Origin: a virus
Virus record (IMG/VR): IMGVR_UViG_3300036846_000726
Location: 1-44,332 of that record
Length of the DNA stretch: 44,332 bases
Reading direction: 5' to 3' (one strand)
The position numbers and the translations under genes are program-made. Below are positions 21,142 through 37,102 of this stretch, piece after piece; position 1 is the stretch's first letter, and each line of letters begins with the position of its first letter. A model generated the notes under the pieces. The model was given only the letters and a program-made list of their open reading frames with translations. It was not told the origin of the DNA and did no database searches.

Positions 21142-22322
21142 TACTTCTCCCTCCTCGCCGTGTCTGCCTTATGCTTATTAAGCTCTTTCCAGGCGCTCTC
21201 GTCGGTCAGGATAGAAGCAATGAAGCCAAGACTCTTCCTCATCTCCGGGAAGAGGGAGTGCCAACCGAGCATGGTATCGTCAGTGCACCTATCCGGCCTC
21301 ATTCCCATTTTTATTAGATATTGCAAGTCGTAGACTCCATTCTGGAAGACCAAATCCAGCCCCGCCTCCAAGAGTCTCTTAATAAGCTTCCAAACCCGGC
21401 ATTCCTCTTCATATTCCCAGTAGGAGGTGACTTCCTGGCCTCCCCTTGAAGGTCGTATGACCACAAAGTTCTGCCCCCTGCGGTAGCGATGTGGGCCGAA
21501 AGGCACTACCATTGCCTCAGAAGGGCTCCTTGCAAAGCCAATGGTGTCTATCATCCCACCGGAGGTTTCAATATCGACCGCCAGATGCCAGGGCTTCGCC
21601 CTGATCGTCTCTTCGATCCATTCCTCCACCTGATCCTCTTCTGGACTTATTATTACCTCTCTCTTCGGCCTTCGTATCTCCGGGTAGGTACTCTCCCTCG
21701 ATGCCTTCATCAAATCCGCTATTACGACGGGCCGGTTGCTCCATTGGCCCTCGTATAGCAAGGAGGCGGGGTGGAAGGTTGGGAGGACTTTGACTCCTAG
21801 AGATGGAGACATAACCGTAGTGCCTCTAATACCAGTGATACCAGTAGTGCCCAGTAAAGCCCAACAAGCAGCATTGCCCATAGCCACAATAAGGTTTGGC
21901 TTGAGGGCTGCAATATCCTCTTTGAGACGATCGAGGTGATGCAAATACTCAGGTCGAAGATACTTGGCACGAACCATAGCATTGTAAGGGTAATCCTTCC
22001 CTACTTCTGTCTTCGTCCCGCAAAAGGCTTCGAGCTTGTTCCCTGGCGGCCTCTCATTCAGGACATTAGTCATGCCAATGGATGCAGCCTCTAGCCAGGC
22101 ATCACGCCTGGAGATCCATGCCAATCCCCACTGCGGCCCAAGCAACTCCGCTGCATAGGAATGCAAATCGGGTCGGACCTCGGCAAAAGCCTGGCCTAGC
22201 ATCCGCCAGAGTTCCTGTCCCGAGACCCAGCAGAAGGGCACCTTTGCCTTTTCTTCTCCTTCTCCCCAAGCTTCTCCGCATATTAGTATACGTGGATTGG
22301 GAGGGCCGCTGTAGCCAAACAT
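21141..22322 (-). CDS. Uracil-DNA-glycosylase-like domain fused to the N-terminal part of a DnaQ-type 3'-5' exonuclease
   Basis: A 393-residue protein. Residues 10-45 (ILICGEAWGEGEEKAKVPFCWVSGQELW) are motif 1 of family 4/5 UDGs; ALKPNLIVAMGNAACWALLG and LPTFHPASLL give the middle strand and the HPS-like motif. Residues 245-380 begin an exonuclease domain: Exo I DIETSG, Exo II FQNGVYDLQYL and DDTMLGWHSLFPEMRKSLGFIASI. The domain lacks Exo III, which is found at the start of the polymerase ORF 19311-20801. In many phages these three parts form one polypeptide. The TGATG overlap with the upstream methyltransferase gene indicates one operon. Confidence 0.8.
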   Translation of the reverse strand: MFGYSGPPNPRILICGEAWGEGEEKAKVPFCWVSGQELWRMLGQAFAEVRPDLHSYAAELLGPQWGLAWISRRDAWLEAASIGMTNVLNERPPGNKLEAFCGTKTEVGKDYPYNAMVRAKYLRPEYLHHLDRLKEDIAALKPNLIVAMGNAACWALLGTTGITGIRGTTVMSPSLGVKVLPTFHPASLLYEGQWSNRPVVIADLMKASRESTYPEIRRPKREVIISPEEDQVEEWIEETIRAKPWHLAVDIETSGGMIDTIGFARSPSEAMVVPFGPHRYRRGQNFVVIRPSRGGQEVTSYWEYEEECRVWKLIKRLLEAGLDLVFQNGVYDLQYLIKMGMRPDRCTDDTMLGWHSLFPEMRKSLGFIASILTDESAWKELNKHKADTARREK

Positions 22323-23815
22323 CAGATCCCCCTAATTATGCTCATCTTTGCCCGGCTGTCTTTCAGAGCGAGTCGTGCAGCTTCGCAGTATTGCCAATCT
22401 ATTTCGAGGCCGAGGGCTCTCTTAGCGCCCAGGCTCTCTGCTGCTCGTAGAGCGGCTCCAGAACCACAGGTGGGGTCGAAAATGGAGGTCTGGTCGTCCA
22501 CGAACATCTCAAAGAAGTAACGGAGCATTGGTTCCGGCTTGGTACTTGGATGGACACTCCGGTCAGAGGGGCTTGCATACGCATCGGACTTGAGCCGGGC
22601 GATGGGAGTATCACCTCGGGACATCAGAAGGCAAGTATCGTAAATATGGCGAGGACGACGCTTGTAGTCAGAAGCGATACCACTATTATCAGAATGGAGC
22701 CAAATAAGGGGATGGGTTTGAACCTCCAAGCTTGGCGCCTTGTACTTAAAGACATCCCTTGTTTCCCTCCCGAGCCGCTCTGAATACCAGAACATAATCC
22801 AGCCACTCACGCTGAAGAACCGATCGAGGTTCTCACAGAAGCAATCAAGCAAGTTCATATAAAGATCTGGGCTGTCATGGTAGATAGTGTGTTCATTCCC
22901 TTGCATCTGCGGCCCAACTTCCACAGCGCCGTATGGGAAGTCAACATGCACGAAGTTAAAGCGGGAGCCGGAATAGGAAGGTGCCCAGTCGAGGAAACTT
23001 GTATGGACAATGGCTTCAGCAAGGTCTCCTATGCCATTGACCTTCTTTGGCTTCCCTTCGATCGTTATTGGAAGCAAAGTCACGGGACGATTAGGGTCGG
23101 CTGTCCAAATCCCATTCACCTTGACCATACCTGCATCGGCGAGGTCTTGCTCTTGTGCCGTGAGGATCTGTTCACGGGTGAGAGGGGTTGGAGGCGGGAT
23201 GGAGGGGTCATCGTCGAAGATGTCAGGATAGGAGTCGGGATCGTCTTCATCGAAGTCACCCTCGAGGAGTTGGGCAAAGGCTGCTTCCTTCCTCCGGCTC
23301 TCCCGCCTTTCAAGGACATCATAGGCTTGTCGAGCGTTGGTGCATTTCTTTATTCTCTCATCATCAATGAAGGAAAATACCTTTAAATAGATGGAGACAG
23401 TGCCTTCAGTTAGGGAGAGGGCCTGTGCTGTAGAGGCCTGGGACCATTTCTCCTCATTATCCATATGGAGTTTATGGAGCTTTCCAACAGCGGCAACGAA
23501 ATCCTGCCAAGGAAGCTCTTTCCTCTTTATGTTCTCTTCAAGCTCGATTATGGAGGCTTGGACAGGGCTTAGTTGATCTGCGAACTGGACAGGGATCTCA
23601 ACCCACTTCAAGGCCATGCATGCCCGTAGACGCCTCTCCCCAGCGACTAAGACATGCTTCCCCGTCTCATCCAATTTTACCACTATCGGATTGATAAGAC
23701 CTATTTGCTTGATGCTTTTCTGGAGGTCCTCCGTCTCAATGACTCGCCTCTGCCTCTCATCCCGTAGGATGCTTATCTGCTCTATAGGGAGTTTTATGAA
23801 TTGCCCATCAAGCAT
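22322..23815 (-). CDS. ParB-like nuclease/adaptor domain fused to a DNA methyltransferase
   Basis: A 497-residue protein. Residues 8-110 are a ParB/Srx domain (QISILRDERQRR...IKQIGLINPIVVK...HVLVAGERRLRACMAL). A helical HTH-like region follows (WSQASTAQALSLTEGTVSIYL), then an acidic linker. The C-terminal half is a methyltransferase with motif IV as DFPYG (usual DPPY changed to DFPY) preceding motif I FDPTCGSGAALRAAESLGAKRALGLEID, an order typical of beta-class N6-adenine/N4-cytosine enzymes. SVHPSTKPEPMLRYF is the conserved H-x-T-x-KP element. It probably modifies phage DNA against host restriction. A terminator lies just upstream of the gene. Confidence 0.85.
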   Translation of the reverse strand: MLDGQFIKLPIEQISILRDERQRRVIETEDLQKSIKQIGLINPIVVKLDETGKHVLVAGERRLRACMALKWVEIPVQFADQLSPVQASIIELEENIKRKELPWQDFVAAVGKLHKLHMDNEEKWSQASTAQALSLTEGTVSIYLKVFSFIDDERIKKCTNARQAYDVLERRESRRKEAAFAQLLEGDFDEDDPDSYPDIFDDDPSIPPPTPLTREQILTAQEQDLADAGMVKVNGIWTADPNRPVTLLPITIEGKPKKVNGIGDLAEAIVHTSFLDWAPSYSGSRFNFVHVDFPYGAVEVGPQMQGNEHTIYHDSPDLYMNLLDCFCENLDRFFSVSGWIMFWYSERLGRETRDVFKYKAPSLEVQTHPLIWLHSDNSGIASDYKRRPRHIYDTCLLMSRGDTPIARLKSDAYASPSDRSVHPSTKPEPMLRYFFEMFVDDQTSIFDPTCGSGAALRAAESLGAKRALGLEIDWQYCEAARLALKDSRAKMSIIRGI

Positions 23816-32460: not shown

Positions 32461-33066
32461 TAGCTCACACATAGGTCATGGTACTCTCTTTTGGCCCTGG
32501 CTCGCACTCCGCACCTGATGCTTTCGGAGGAGTTGGCTCGATCGACTTGTTTGATACTCTCCATCACGATGGCTCACACAAATGTCTTGGTACTCTCCTT
32601 TAGCCTGGCTTGCTCCACTCTTTTGGTACTCTCAAGAGGGTTGGCTCGCTCTCTGATCAGGGTTCTCTCTCATACTCTGGCTCGCATATCATGGTACTCT
32701 CCCGCTTGAATGGCTCGCGCAATATATATGGTACTCCCGTGTTCGATGGCTCACTCACGTGTCATGGTACTCACAGGACGAGTGGTTCATGCCAAATGCT
32801 TGGTACTCTCTGGAGGAATGGTTCACACAAACAGAGTGGTACTCTCCACGTTTCTGGCTCGCTCACTTTAGTTGGTACTCTTGCTCTTTGTGGCTTCCAG
32901 CCGTCGCTTTGCTCCGACTAGACTTGCATATCCGGGCTGCAGCCTGGTGGTTCACACAACTTTTTTGGTACTCTCCAAAGGGCTGGTTCACACTAACAGC
33001 TTGGTACTCTCTTGCGACATGGTTCACACAACCTCTCTGGTACTCTCGAAGGAAGGTGGCTCCTTC
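32461..33066. repeat. TIGR-like guide array A (about 15 units)
   Basis: On the plus strand, TGGTACTCTC and TGGCTCGCAC (variants TGGTTCACAC, TGGCTTGCTC) alternate, each followed by about 8 nt that differ every time, so a repeat starts every 18 nt and a full unit is 36 nt. Examples of spacers are CTTTAGCC, AAGAGGGT, CACGTTTC and TTGCGACA. A break at about 32885-32945 contains unrelated sequence. This is the architecture described for TIGR arrays (two alternating repeats, two short spacers, 36-nt guide). All flanking genes are on the minus strand, so minus-strand transcription (GAGAGTACCA...GTGCGAGCCA) is likely but not shown. ORFs seen in the array (Trp-Tyr-Ser periodic) are by-products of the 18-nt period. 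Confidence 0.85.
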
Positions 33067-33234
33067 GTGTGGCCGGTCACGAGCCCGGTTTGGGCTGAAC
33101 TCCACCGGCGGTTGGTGTTATTCCCTCTTGCACCTTGAATAGACGGCAGGCTGCAAGAGGAGGTCACTTGCCAACTTGACCTACAGGAGTCGCTCCACGC
33201 CCAAGAGCAGGGTCCTGCGCCCTATCTCTCATTG
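33067..33234. other. Spacer region between arrays A and B
   Basis: 168 bases without array repeats or a convincing gene. A 22-codon minus-strand ORF (MRDRAQDPALGRGATP...) is present without good support. The sequence has several short inverted repeats (GAGCCCGGTTTGGGCT; TTGCA...TGCAA) and could hold a leader or promoter for one of the arrays. Confidence 0.3.
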
Positions 33235-33444
33235 AAGAATTCTCCGAATGCTTTGGCTCGCTCCGGATACATGGTACTCTCCTCAAGTTTGACTCGCTCT
33301 CTTCTTTTGGCACTCTCGTCAATTGTGGCTCGCTCAACACATTTAGTACTCTCCCAGGTAGGTGGCTCGCACTCCACATATGGTACTCTCTACGTTATTG
33401 GCTTGCTCTCACTTTTTGGTACTCTCAGGAGGGTTGGCTAAGCT
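33235..33444. repeat. TIGR-like guide array B (about 6 units), 3' of the Tas-like gene
   Basis: Same repeats as array A in the same orientation, for example spacers CTCAAGTT, GTCAATTG, TACGTTAT and TCACTTTT. On the minus strand the array begins with AAGCTTAGCCA, which includes the TAG stop of the Tas-like gene (33438-33440), so it would be transcribed as the 3' end of that mRNA. The last visible repeat at 33235 (AAGAATTCTC) is degenerate. Confidence 0.85.
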
Positions 33445-34457
33445 TGTTTACCAGGTGGAACATAAGCGACACCTGATTGTGGAGGCAGTATGAAGTGCGC
33501 GTGGTTCATGAAGGCGATTGGGTACGGCAGTGGTGCTGGGATGCCAAAGGCGCGCTGATGCCACTCCCCATGCAGATGGCTGAGGAACAGCTTAACAGCA
33601 TACCGCCGGGCTCGTGCATCGATATGAGCCGGTGGGAGCTTGCCTTGGGCATACCACTTGTAAGATTCGGTCTCCGGATTGAAATGGGGGAGGCTTTCGG
33701 CCGCTTTGCCGGCCAAGAGGCCGGCTTCGTTGTTGGCGATCTCGTATGCCTTGCGATGTTCGTAGACCTTGCCGTAATAGCAATCTTCGCGGTTGTGCAG
33801 CTTCATGAAGGACTGCCCCGCCTTCCAGCAAATGACTTTGAGGGCGGCATTAAAGGGTCGCTTTGTCTTCGGGAGCCATTTCTTTTGGCCGTCCCCCGCA
33901 ATACCAGCAAACTGCCAGATATGCCCGACGGTCGGGCAGCTGTTCACCGGCTGATAAACATGCTCCGGCCATTCCTTCTTCTTTTTGTCTTTCTCTTGGC
34001 GGTCGATGCAAGCCTTCTCGGAATGGCCCTTGCAGACGGCGCACCATTGGCCCATGTAGATATGAGCGAGGAAGCCGGCAGACAGGACCGGGCCGATACC
34101 TACGACCTCCCGCATCCAGTCGCCCATTGAATGCGCTTGGGTGTAAGAATCAAGGGCACGGGCGATCTGGTGCTCGAGCGTTCGGTTCTTCTCTGCAAGC
34201 CAGCCAATCAGGAAGTGAGGCTCCTCACCAAGCGAACGAGTTTGGTTGTCTGTCCGCTTCCGATTCTCTTGCGTCATATAATAGGCGTCAACGAGGTAAC
34301 GAGCTTCCTCTGGTCCCATGCTGCGACTTGCGTTCACAAGGTCGCGGCTGAGCCGGATTTTCTCATCTACATGGTCATCCTCGTCAGTCCAATTGATGAA
34401 CTCTGGACGAGGCGGTATTGATGATCCATTGAAGTCGTTGTTTGGCGTATCAGTCAT
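33438..34457 (-). CDS. Tas-like protein: IS110/Nop-domain RNA-guide-binding candidate
   Basis: A 339-residue protein. Residues 1-115 are charged and helical (coiled-coil-like, EARYLVDAYYMTQENRKRTD, LAEKNRTLEHQIARALDSY). Residues 116-235 are the IS110/IS116/IS902 transposase C-terminal (Nop-related helix-hairpin-helix) domain: VVGIGPVLSAGFLAHI (118-133), PTVGHIWQFAGI (175-186) and RPFNAALKVICWKAGQSFMKL (200-220). A Cys cluster (C139, C142, C150) interrupts it. The tail is HIDARARRYAVKLFLSHLH (278-296). No RuvC DEDD domain precedes it and no HNH is fused, so it would be a nuclease-less Tas type. It is bracketed by arrays B and C. TTAGGAGTCATCAA precedes the ATG. The Tas assignment is inferred from domain plus arrays. 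Confidence 0.82.
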   Translation of the reverse strand: MTDTPNNDFNGSSIPPRPEFINWTDEDDHVDEKIRLSRDLVNASRSMGPEEARYLVDAYYMTQENRKRTDNQTRSLGEEPHFLIGWLAEKNRTLEHQIARALDSYTQAHSMGDWMREVVGIGPVLSAGFLAHIYMGQWCAVCKGHSEKACIDRQEKDKKKKEWPEHVYQPVNSCPTVGHIWQFAGIAGDGQKKWLPKTKRPFNAALKVICWKAGQSFMKLHNREDCYYGKVYEHRKAYEIANNEAGLLAGKAAESLPHFNPETESYKWYAQGKLPPAHIDARARRYAVKLFLSHLHGEWHQRAFGIPAPLPYPIAFMNHAHFILPPQSGVAYVPPGKQA

Positions 34458-34484
34458 TTGATGACTCCTAAGGTTGAAACAGGT

Positions 34485-34710
34485 TGTTCACACAGGTCGT
34501 TTTGGTACTCTCCTCTAGCTTGGCTCACTCAGGCTTTTTGGTACTCTCATTGAATCTGGCTCACACTCTCTTCTTGGCACTCTCTCCAGAAGTGGCTCGC
34601 ATCCCAGGATTTGGTACTCTCTTGCTGAGTGGCTCGCACGCTAATTTGGAACTCTCCGGCTGTTTGGCTCGCGCAACAAATGTGGTACTCTCAAACGTCA
34701 TGGCTCACTT
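34485..34710. repeat. TIGR-like guide array C (6 units), 5' of the Tas-like gene
   Basis: TGGTACTCTC-type repeats start at 34503, 34539, 34575, 34612, 34647 and 34683: periods 36, 36, 37, 35, 36. TGGCTCGCAC-type repeats lie midway. Spacers include CTCTAGCT, ATTGAATC, TCCAGAAG, TTGCTGAG, CGGCTGTT and AAACGTCA. On the minus strand it starts inside the stop codon of the 34705 gene (AAGTGAGCCA) and ends about 30 bases before the Tas-like ATG. Confidence 0.88.
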
Positions 34711-34845
34711 GAAGCAGGCTATGTAAACTAGCATGGCTAGGATAACGACAACGAAGATGAGCCCCCACCTTGGAGGAGGCTTGTCATGGAGAATAGGTGT
34801 TGCATCCAGTAAATGAATGCGGACCATCTTCCCCAGGAGGGTCAT
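34705..34845 (-). CDS. Small single-span membrane protein
   Basis: A 46-residue protein. ATG 34845 overlaps the upstream stop (ATGA) with AAGGATG upstream; an alternative ATG at 34860 adds five residues. A basic N-terminus and PPPRWG precede the hydrophobic helix LIFVVVILAMLVYIACF. The stop TGA lies within the first repeat of array C. Function unknown. Confidence 0.5.
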   Translation of the reverse strand: MTLLGKMVRIHLLDATPILHDKPPPRWGLIFVVVILAMLVYIACFK

Positions 34846-35147
34846 TTCATCCTTGTCCATTTTCGCTCGTATCCTAATGCAAAGCCTACCCAACCCATCG
34901 TAAAAGACTGAGGCCGCTTTGTTTTGCCATTGAGCCAGTTGTAGATAGTACTTGAACCGATGCTGTATGCTCCACCAGTTGCTCTAACTACCGCGCTTTG
35001 AATATCGGAGATGGTTAGCTCAGAGGCGTCGATAAGGGAGCAAAGCTCAACCATCGCTGAGTCTTGCTCCTGGAAGCGGTAGGCTTTGTTACGGGTGGCA
35101 AACTCAAGTCGGTGGATTTTGGCAGTCGGCCTTGCTGTCTTTGTCAT
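34842..35147 (-). CDS. HTH (XRE/Cro-like) regulator candidate
   Basis: A 101-residue protein. LTISDIQSAVVRATGGAYSIGSSTIYNWLNGKTKRPQSFTMGWVGFALGYERKW fits a phage helix-turn-helix family (recognition helix SSTIYNWLNG, followed by the T.RPQ...........LGY.... pattern). It probably regulates transcription within the minus-strand early region. It overlaps the upstream gene by 44 bases. Confidence 0.7.
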   Translation of the reverse strand: MTKTARPTAKIHRLEFATRNKAYRFQEQDSAMVELCSLIDASELTISDIQSAVVRATGGAYSIGSSTIYNWLNGKTKRPQSFTMGWVGFALGYERKWTRMK

Positions 35148-35967
35148 GGGTCGCTTCCTCTATTGCCCGGAGTTGAATTGCAAGGTTAAGGCATTCAGCC
35201 TCGACATAGGCTAGGTTTCGGTAAACATCTTGCAGCCCTCCTTTCAGTCGGTCTGTTAAAAGAGCTTCGATAGCAGGCATCTGATCGCCCGCATGAGCAC
35301 AGTCGAAGCCTAACCACCAAAGCTCTGAGAAGGCCTCTTCAGTGGCCGGGACAAGGCAGATGCAGCTCTGCTCGACTATGCGGACGAACTCTATGTAGGA
35401 ATGCTCAGCTAGGCCCCACTTTTGAAGCCACCGCGCTGCATCCCCTATGGGGAATCGTTTGGCCTGATCTCTGGCGACCTTAAAGTGGTCATTGCTTTCG
35501 GAGCTGAACTCAAGCCAGTTCTCATAGGACGGGTTGGTGCCAAGCCCTGAATAGGTTAAGCCTCCATGAACTTGAATGTCTTGGAGGGCTTTGCCAGCTT
35601 CAGTATCAGGCTCGGGCCAGTCGGGGCCAGCATCAAAGTCTGGCAGACCGTGCTTGTCCTTGGGTCTGCCTCGGCGACCCCAGTCAATCATGCGCTCTTT
35701 AAAGTCCTCCCTGATGATCTCCATGATGAGGTTGGAGACGCCTTCGTAAGAGAGGCCGTAGCAAGGGTGGGCCTTGTCAACGCCTATATAGGCACAGAAG
35801 GCTCCGTGATGAGACCGCAGAATGATGCAATGGTAGCCTTCGGTGATAAATTGCACTTTGTCAGGCTCATTCAGCCATTCACCCTTGCCCCAGCTTGCTT
35901 TATCGAACTCAGGGTTGTCCCATTCGAGCCGGGAAGCAAGGGCAGTTTCATCAAATTCCTCTTCCAT
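35104..35967 (-). CDS. Hypothetical phage protein of a widespread family
   Basis: A 287-residue protein. ATG 35967 (MEEEFDETAL) follows GGAGGTTTGGAA; an upstream ATG at 36000 within the inverted repeat is possible but lacks a site. GAFCAYIGVDKAHPCYG, DIQVHGGLTYSG and WWLGFDCAHAGDQMP are typical of a common phage protein (HP..G, VHGGLT, W..GFDCAH) of unknown role. The C-terminal helix (YRNLAYVEAECLNLAIQL) is also conserved there. Confidence 0.7.
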   Translation of the reverse strand: MEEEFDETALASRLEWDNPEFDKASWGKGEWLNEPDKVQFITEGYHCIILRSHHGAFCAYIGVDKAHPCYGLSYEGVSNLIMEIIREDFKERMIDWGRRGRPKDKHGLPDFDAGPDWPEPDTEAGKALQDIQVHGGLTYSGLGTNPSYENWLEFSSESNDHFKVARDQAKRFPIGDAARWLQKWGLAEHSYIEFVRIVEQSCICLVPATEEAFSELWWLGFDCAHAGDQMPAIEALLTDRLKGGLQDVYRNLAYVEAECLNLAIQLRAIEEATHDKDSKADCQNPPT

Positions 35968-35990
35968 TTCCAAACCTCCAGGGGTTGAGA

Positions 35991-36499
35991 GTCGCACCAT
36001 TCACCACGGACCCTTTATCTCGAGGCCCTCTTCAGTGAAGACATCTGACATATCAAGCTCTTTAGCTCTTTCTTTTTCTTTGTGTTTTAATTCCCTAGAT
36101 CGTTTCTCAGCTAATTTTCGCAACTTTCTATAACCAGGTGGATTAGGATGATAAGACCTCTGATCTGGTTTAGCTCTATTATAAGTTGGCTTCCATTGGT
36201 CAATAGCAATTACTTCTAATTCAGCTAAGTTAAAGTAGTCTAACACAGTTATTATTGGGTATATAATGAAAGCATCAGGTCCATACACTCTTATAGCTTC
36301 AAATAGAGGCGACTTGATATCCTTTCTAGCACATTCCCTGTGACGTTTCCAACGCTTTTCAAGACTGGTTTTAGTTCCTCCTACATAAGTATCCTCTGTA
36401 ATAGTATTACGTATGAGATAAATAATACCCCTCGTGGTGACCCTGCGGGTTTTTAAAGTGTCCCGCAGGGTGCTATACGTCCGTGGTGAATGGTGCGAC
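35991..36499. mobile_element. GIY-YIG cassette bounded by 21-bp inverted repeats
   Basis: GTCGCACCATTCACCACGGAC at 35991-36011 recurs exactly as its reverse complement at 36479-36499. Between them lies the GIY-YIG coding region and a strong hairpin (CCCTGCGGG...CCCGCAGGG, 36441-36470). No clear target-site duplication flanks the repeats. It looks like a mobile unit or a duplicated target created on insertion. Confidence 0.55.
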
Positions 36500-36573
36500 A
36501 GATCAGAGACTCCAACGGCCCGGAGCGACATAGCGTCCTTTAAGGCGGCTGGTAGAAGGGGACAAGGCTTCAT
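36001..36573 (-). CDS. GIY-YIG homing-type endonuclease
   Basis: Read from ATG 36573 it has 190 residues; an ATG at 36705 would extend it into array D. After a 48-residue leader, GIIYLIRNTITEDTYVGGT is the GIY-YIG signature, followed by LEKRWKRHRECARKD (catalytic Arg and His), a Glu in NLAELEVIAIDQWKPTYN and a basic tail (RKLAEKRSRELKHKEKERAK) for DNA binding. The end of the gene and its leader both fall in the 21-bp inverted repeats. The leader may be part of a disrupted host gene read through in frame. Confidence 0.75.
   Translation of the reverse strand: MKPCPLLPAALKDAMSLRAVGVSDLSHHSPRTYSTLRDTLKTRRVTTRGIIYLIRNTITEDTYVGGTKTSLEKRWKRHRECARKDIKSPLFEAIRVYGPDAFIIYPIITVLDYFNLAELEVIAIDQWKPTYNRAKPDQRSYHPNPPGYRKLRKLAEKRSRELKHKEKERAKELDMSDVFTEEGLEIKGPW
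36441..36470. promoter_or_regulatory. 9-bp hairpin in front of the GIY-YIG domain
   Basis: CCCTGCGGG (36441-36449) pairs with CCCGCAGGG (36462-36470) around an 11-nt AT-rich loop. It may be a terminator or translation-blocking hairpin limiting endonuclease expression. Confidence 0.45.
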
Positions 36574-36639
36574 CTCTGCCACGGTCCTTAGTTTGGGTTG
36601 CACAGGCTTTTCAACAGCGCCAGCTTTGCTCCACATCAA

Positions 36640-37102
36640 TGGTTCTCTCTGATGCCCTGGCTGGTAGGCAGTTGTCGCGGCTGTGGTTCGCGGAAGGGTA
36701 GGCACTCACATCAAAGTGGTACTCTCCGAGGTTGTGGTTCGCCCCTAACCCTATGGTACTCTCCCATAACATGGCTCGCGCAGGTCTAATGGTACTCGCG
36801 AAAGGATTGGCTTACTCTATCATCTTGGTGCTCCCGATGGAGATGGTTCGCACAACAGTTGTGGTTCTCACGAGGTAGTTGGTTCGCACGGTCAATTGGT
36901 ACTCTCCTCCTTATTGGCTCGCACTAGCCATTTGGTACTCTCTGACGTCTTTGGCTCGCATCACACATTCATCTGGTACTCTTTAACGGCGTGGCTGGAT
37001 TCGAGGCTGACCGAAGGGAAGCCTCGGCTCATCTGGTTTGGTCCTCTTCAAGCGGGTGGCTCGCTCGCACTCTATGATTCTCTCATGCTGGGTGGCTAAG
37101 CT
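36640..37102. repeat. TIGR-like guide array D (about 10 units, edges degenerate)
   Basis: TGGTACTCTC-type repeats begin at 36717, 36754, 36790, 36826, 36862, 36897 and 36933 (periods mostly 36), alternating with TGGCTCGCAC/TGGTTCGCAC. Outer repeats are diverged and spacing becomes irregular (41 nt near 36974; unrelated sequence at about 36998-37050). Spacers include CGAGGTTG, CCATAACA, GATGGAGA, CTCCTTAT and TAGCCATT. On the minus strand it begins AAGCTTAGCCA, the same start as array B. Confidence 0.83.

Follow-up and report, generated by a model that had tools for sequence, protein, structure and literature searches.

What is encoded in a phage genome in which two short repeats alternate with variable spacers in four separate blocks? 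The question is raised by the virus record IMGVR_UViG_3300036846_000726 (44,332 bases, analysed over its whole length and called the window below), in which a first-pass annotation, made from sequence alone, had proposed a TIGR system spread over several cassettes. We consider it likely that the locus is a phage-borne TIGR-TasA system in which 36-nucleotide (nt) guides from the minus strand would direct a dimer of the nuclease-free protein TasA to a 16-base-pair (bp) site split between the two DNA strands, where TasA would act as a roadblock, most likely on behalf of one phage against another. TIGR-TasA systems in phages are already known (Faure et al. 2025, PMC12045711); their natural targets and the purpose of a nuclease-free TasA were left open in that study, and no report of natural TIGR targets was found in the open-access literature searched. 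Relatives of the window TasA point to a named locus that their guides hit repeatedly in other phages and with the split-strand geometry predicted; should it hold, this natural target locus would be a new finding in the field.

Array architecture and the tasA gene

Both repeats, with a half-period of about 18 nt, are present in four blocks where the first-pass annotation had placed them. On the plus strand TGGTACTCTC alternates with TGGCTCGCAC, and at up to one mismatch repeat A is found there 35 times and repeat B 21 times, far above chance, compared with once each on the minus strand. A chain model recovered 36 edge repeats and 30 complete 36-nt units across the four blocks, and the roughly 37 units counted earlier thus include partial ones. 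In the minus-strand sense, the edge repeat, which opens and closes blocks, is G(A/T)G(C/T)GA(G/A)CCA, and the loop repeat is GAGAGTACCA; these are two distinct kinds of repeat, each of 10 nt, within the 8–12 nt expected of TIGR arrays. Spacers in the window are mostly 8 nt long (range 6–9), and in the related family 8-nt spacers make up more than 90% of units at a 36-nt period. Edge and loop repeats both end in the conserved CCA of box C, and box D has diverged from UG to G(A/T)G, although its third base still pairs, as expected, with the leading C of box C. The first edge repeat is truncated at its 5' end, to TAGCCA at the start of blocks 2 and 4 and to GAGCCA at the start of block 1.

All four blocks are collinear with tasA (33438–34457, minus strand), a gene overlooked in the first-pass annotation that lies between blocks 2 and 3, and the description of several cassettes is therefore apt. 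On the minus strand, block 1 (32461–33066) is the longest and is interrupted at about 32888–32947 by a stretch able to fold; block 2 (33235–33444) lies directly 3' of tasA and overlaps its stop-codon end; block 3 (34484–34710) holds six complete units, with repeat spacings of exactly the 36, 36, 37, 35 and 36 nt first reported, and stops about 27 nt short of the tasA start codon; and block 4 (36640–37102), upstream of tasA, holds about nine units with interruptions at about 36984–37040 (hairpin-bearing) and about 36660–36716 (irregular). Regular edge repeats occur throughout, rather than the palindromic stem-loops that replace them in stem-loop TIGR arrays, although one interruption in block 4 resembles a hairpin-opened edge. 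At this place (36984–37040, minus strand) an edge repeat has apparently been opened by a 7-bp hairpin (GAGC-CGAGGCT...AGCCTCG-AATCCA), and it is possibly an intermediate between the dual-repeat and stem-loop forms. Blocks 4 (37090–37102) and 2 (33438–33450) open with the identical AAGCTTAGCCA, which in block 2 is the 3' end of tasA, and block 4 may have been derived by duplication of this tasA–array junction.

The interruptions of blocks 4 and 1, the degeneracy of some repeats and the slippage of spacers to 6–9 nt could also be read as the marks of a relic, that is, of an inactive TIGR system broken by a GIY-YIG gene and other insertions. We regard this as improbable because the tasA frame is intact over 339 amino acids and keeps the invariant columns of a 19-member family alignment, the majority of repeats are intact, and block 3 is nearly perfect.

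A Nop-domain protein without a nuclease

The window tasA product had no credible Pfam match, including to the nuclease families HNH and RuvC, and matched phrog_4285, which is labelled 'transposase'; tblastn against isolated phage records returned no match. A profile built from 19 family members and searched against PDB matched TasR (9mty, E = 1.4e-20) and TasH (21kl, E = 1.8e-11), followed by IS621 (E = 1.1e-3), and these matches span the Nop part (residues 124–263 of 331 in TasR and 103–253 of 354 in TasH). An AlphaFold model of the protein had a mean predicted local distance difference test score of 76, with low confidence in the N-terminal 34 residues, and the top 11 Foldseek matches to this model were all TasH or TasR. 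Since no nuclease domain was found in this Nop protein, the nomenclature of Faure et al. (PMC12045711) makes it a TasA. The gene between blocks 2 and 3, these profile and fold matches and the same arrays in relatives (below) support the first proposal, that the system is TIGR.

The 'transposase' label and the remote relation to IS621 invite a different interpretation, in which the Nop-domain protein is used in an IS110-like manner as an RNA-guided aid to integration or transposition, and help to integrases was one possibility raised by Faure et al. We consider this very improbable because there is no Pfam match to a transposase, including the DEDD domain of IS110, or to a nuclease, the model leaves no room for a catalytic domain, the fold ranks TasH and TasR ahead of IS621, and a bridge RNA is one molecule with two loops, whereas the window has an array of about 30 units.

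Guide strand and unit boundaries

The first-pass annotation gave the repeats as their complement; the guides are on the minus strand, because the repeats end in CCA (box C), this is the strand of tasA, and relatives carry their arrays on the strand of tas. In block 2 the first truncated edge repeat (TAGCCA) takes in the tasA stop codon, and because of this fusion it is very likely that tasA and block 2 share one transcript. The arrangement recurs in relatives, with CCA at most one base from the tas stop in 33 of 52 loci (those with an array starting within 60 nt of the stop). Loci located through the TasA protein alone bear the same 36-nt dual-repeat arrays next to tas. Among the first-found viral relatives, all 30 have them in the orientation of tas and none in the opposite one; arrays were also present in 49 of 52 further viral loci, bacterial or archaeal genomes had them at 11 of 17 loci, and overall a Tas gene stands beside arrays in about 90% of relatives. 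In all, 363 related loci were counted. The wider set agrees on the strand, and the only extra opposite-strand array seen is in L150/L151 (4716–5085), which also has several arrays on the tas strand. Related TasA arrays were found in the genomes of Acidobacteriaceae KBS 96 and Halomonas sp. NO4 (L037/L158 and L035/L155) with matching IMG/VR records; these loci are therefore putative prophages, and the two isolates could serve as experimental hosts.

Unit boundaries were read from covariation among 576 edge repeats of the family, in 536 neighbour pairs, in which positions 3/8 and 4/7 alternate between G-C/A-U and C-G/U-A pairs. Positions 3 and 8 form Watson-Crick pairs in 92% of cases when the right half of one edge is paired with the left half of the next, in 61% when both are taken from one repeat and in 74% in a control that joins the wrong neighbours; for positions 4 and 7 the corresponding values are 95%, 64% and 74%. 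Because edge pairs covary between neighbouring edges and not inside one repeat, this pattern supports a 36-nt guide that would be cut in mid-repeat and closed by pairing of its own two ends, in agreement with the cryo-electron microscopy account of TasR (Faure et al., PMC12045711). Neighbour-edge pairing thus allows the strand of the guides and their limits to be assigned by computation alone. The identity of the system, its strand and its unit boundaries are shown here by computation and are well supported.

Periodicity alone would fit simple tandem or coding repeats with no guide function, an idea that is already refuted: two conserved repeats alternate, the variable spacers are of equal length, neighbouring edges covary, and a Tas gene stands beside the arrays in most relatives. 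The first-pass annotation had likewise set microsatellites and coding repeats aside. It had also described spacers that vary while the repeats are conserved, and this holds between near-identical tas loci, which have only part of their spacer pairs in common; the common units keep their order, and gain and loss of units is internal and apparently not end-polarised. Among guide pairs, 149 are near-identical (1–3 differences) against about 9 expected, and in nine cases at up to two differences (null 0.5) the spacers are exchanged, with A used as B and B as A. As the geometry of a target would be A + rc(B), a pair with its spacers exchanged would specify the identical duplex site, taken from its opposite side. 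Across the A/B junction, guide variants in two families hinted at a codon-like three-base periodicity, with no clear signal overall, and overlapping, shifted composites, taken as a sign of repeated targeting, showed no excess.

Targets of guides in related systems

The cut positions and 8-nt 3' overhangs reported by Faure et al. (PMC12045711) led us to the A + rc(B) geometry. In this form the composite of one seed guide family (TAYCACGA + RGGCTTCY), found in both orientations, was scanned against IMG/VR. The scan returned 46 contigs, of which 17 have one gene in common (19 when clustered by homology at the site). This gene encodes a 153-amino-acid protein of no known family and lies upstream of a 174-amino-acid gene and of genes for a Sak4-like annealing ATPase, a single-strand-binding (SSB)-like protein, a Cas4-type exonuclease and a helicase.

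All loci encoding the 153-amino-acid protein (411 kb) then served as a test set for 1,016 other guide pairs, with the seed family removed and re-paired spacers as the null; since the loci are mutually related, counts are of distinct guide pairs and not of loci. In the A + rc(B) geometry with no gap, four pairs matched exactly (null 0.1, maximum 1) and 15 matched at up to one mismatch (null 5.5, maximum 10), compared with at most one exact pair in each of fifteen other order, gap and strand geometries. Relative to the 153-amino-acid gene the sites fall at about -122 (two mismatches), -42 (exact, 18 loci), +195, +291 and +851 (exact, 10), and they crowd around the two small genes upstream of the Sak4/SSB/Cas4-exonuclease/helicase module. 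There was no excess in DNA of carriers and related phages (2.85 Mb; 0–1 exact against a null of 1.1–1.9), nor in 1.1 Mb of unrelated loci from two other scans (0 exact against 0.25). By contig name, carriers and target contigs share a metagenome in several cases; in metagenome 3300037508 the guide GGAAGCCT/TACCACGA of carrier L008 matches target L226 exactly, and the presence of both makes the role of TasA directly testable.

These computed matches support, for the freshwater relatives, the conclusion that their TasA guides match an early replication and recombination region of other phages, with spacers A and B predicted to pair with neighbouring stretches of the target, one on each strand.

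Proposed mode of action

We infer the following course of events in the window. The arrays and tasA would be transcribed together from the minus strand, and cleavage of the transcript halfway through every edge repeat would release 36-nt guides consisting of a half edge, spacer A, loop, spacer B and a second half edge. Each guide would be held by a TasA dimer with its two half-edge ends paired together, and the complex would bind a 16-bp site in double-stranded DNA, where spacers A and B would pair with different strands. Because TasA has no nuclease, it would most likely act as a programmable roadblock to transcription or replication, with no cutting. Since guides of relatives match an early region of other phages, use of phage against phage is the most likely purpose, and the same use is presumed in this phage. 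We lean towards the more general view that TIGR-TasA is a form of phage-versus-phage interference in which split guides, acquired in either orientation, direct nuclease-free TasA to the early replication and recombination genes of rival phages and block these without cutting, guide variants tracking the variants of one site in different target phages.

Several results weigh against this interpretation of the window. None of its 30 guides matched at up to one mismatch in about 3.7 Mb of DNA (the window, 62 major-capsid relatives, the full contigs of relatives and all fetched loci), and one window composite (TCGTGATGGACTTGTT) scanned against IMG/VR gave 27 chance-like matches, at whose loci no other window guide matched at up to one mismatch. 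Two further freshwater guide families (GTGAGTACRCTTTYAA and CGAGCATCRATCTCYT) gave small homologous clusters in which no second guide was found, and no target was called. A simple-consensus scan of the minus strand for terminator-like sites after the arrays gave no clear one, although 3'-truncated edges are present, and the edge pairs of the window, taken by themselves, are too uniform for covariation to be seen. With regard to the terminator, a Rho-independent terminator after the 3'-truncated edge is typical and not obligatory (Faure et al., PMC12045711).

An alternative interpretation is that TIGR-TasA regulates the phage's own genes or those of its host instead of attacking other phages, as binding of a nuclease-free TasA to own or host DNA would not be lethal, and the window guides had no target in the roughly 3.7 Mb described above. 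We consider this unlikely because no window guide matches the window or its relatives at up to one mismatch, guides of relatives match other phages, the targeted 153-amino-acid gene was not found in array-carrying loci, and guides turn over fast between near-identical tas loci, unlike fixed regulators.

Comparison with known systems

The window agrees with the TIGR-TasA systems of Faure et al. (PMC12045711) in its alternation of two 10-nt repeats, its short spacers in pairs, the unit of 36 nt and the solo Nop-domain Tas beside the arrays, as well as in box C at the repeat ends, the 5'-truncated first edge and its occurrence in a phage. It differs in box D (G(A/T)G rather than UG), in having four blocks with 30 units and other genes between them where 5–15 units are usual, in that no clear terminator was found, and in its 8 + 8-nt spacers, since 9 nt is the rule (exceptions up to 12), with 8 + 8 known from SpTIGR, a TasH system. 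It has the Nop-domain fold and dual-repeat arrays in common with TIGR-TasH (Salicola phage CGphi29) and TIGR-TasR (PDB 9mty), whose opposite-strand dual-spacer targeting is predicted for it too; unlike in these, HNH and RuvC domains are absent from the window protein, and DNA cleavage is therefore not expected. IS110-family elements (IS621, bridge RNA) are remote homologues with a common RNA-binding domain, but no DEDD catalytic domain was found in the window protein and a guide array takes the place of one bridge RNA. CRISPR arrays likewise alternate repeats with variable spacers, and spacers of relatives match other phages, but the window family has two short alternating repeats, a split guide, no cas or adaptation genes and apparently internal turnover of units. 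An Rfam search of the region gave no credible match.

Genomic context

The window encodes head, head-closure, tail-fibre, DNA polymerase A, primase, UvrD-type helicase and exonuclease genes. A GIY-YIG homing-endonuclease-like open reading frame (36001–36705, minus strand, true start probably near 36636) lies between block 4 and the rest; it probably does not belong to the TIGR system; it abuts block 4 and may have moved into or with the module. Between blocks 3 and 4 are two phage genes (34842–36000, minus strand; 298 amino acids with a weak MazG-like match, and 101 amino acids with no match) that are not conserved next to tas in relatives, in which no conserved helper or adaptation gene adjoining tas was found. 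The TIGR module looks accessory in this phage, and tas was found in none of 32 records of phages with window-like capsid proteins, some of which are fragments, so that absence is not proved for each.

About 10 kb from tasA is a gene for a fused ParB-N/N6-N4 DNA methyltransferase (22322–23815, minus strand); ParB-like genes have been reported in tasA operons (Faure et al., PMC12045711). Several unrelated phage proteins (25948–26274, 28323–28595, 40139–40636 and 41709–42221, all minus strand) end in the same acidic C-terminal tail (VVMDFEEDFFEDK, VLDFDEADFEEALR, LVMDFDEDFFTSEA and LSFDEDFFEE), which resembles the tip of single-strand-binding proteins. One such tail is kept in the relative L163, the pattern finds three protein ends against 0.05 in shuffled DNA, and the tail is perhaps a docking tag for the phage replisome.

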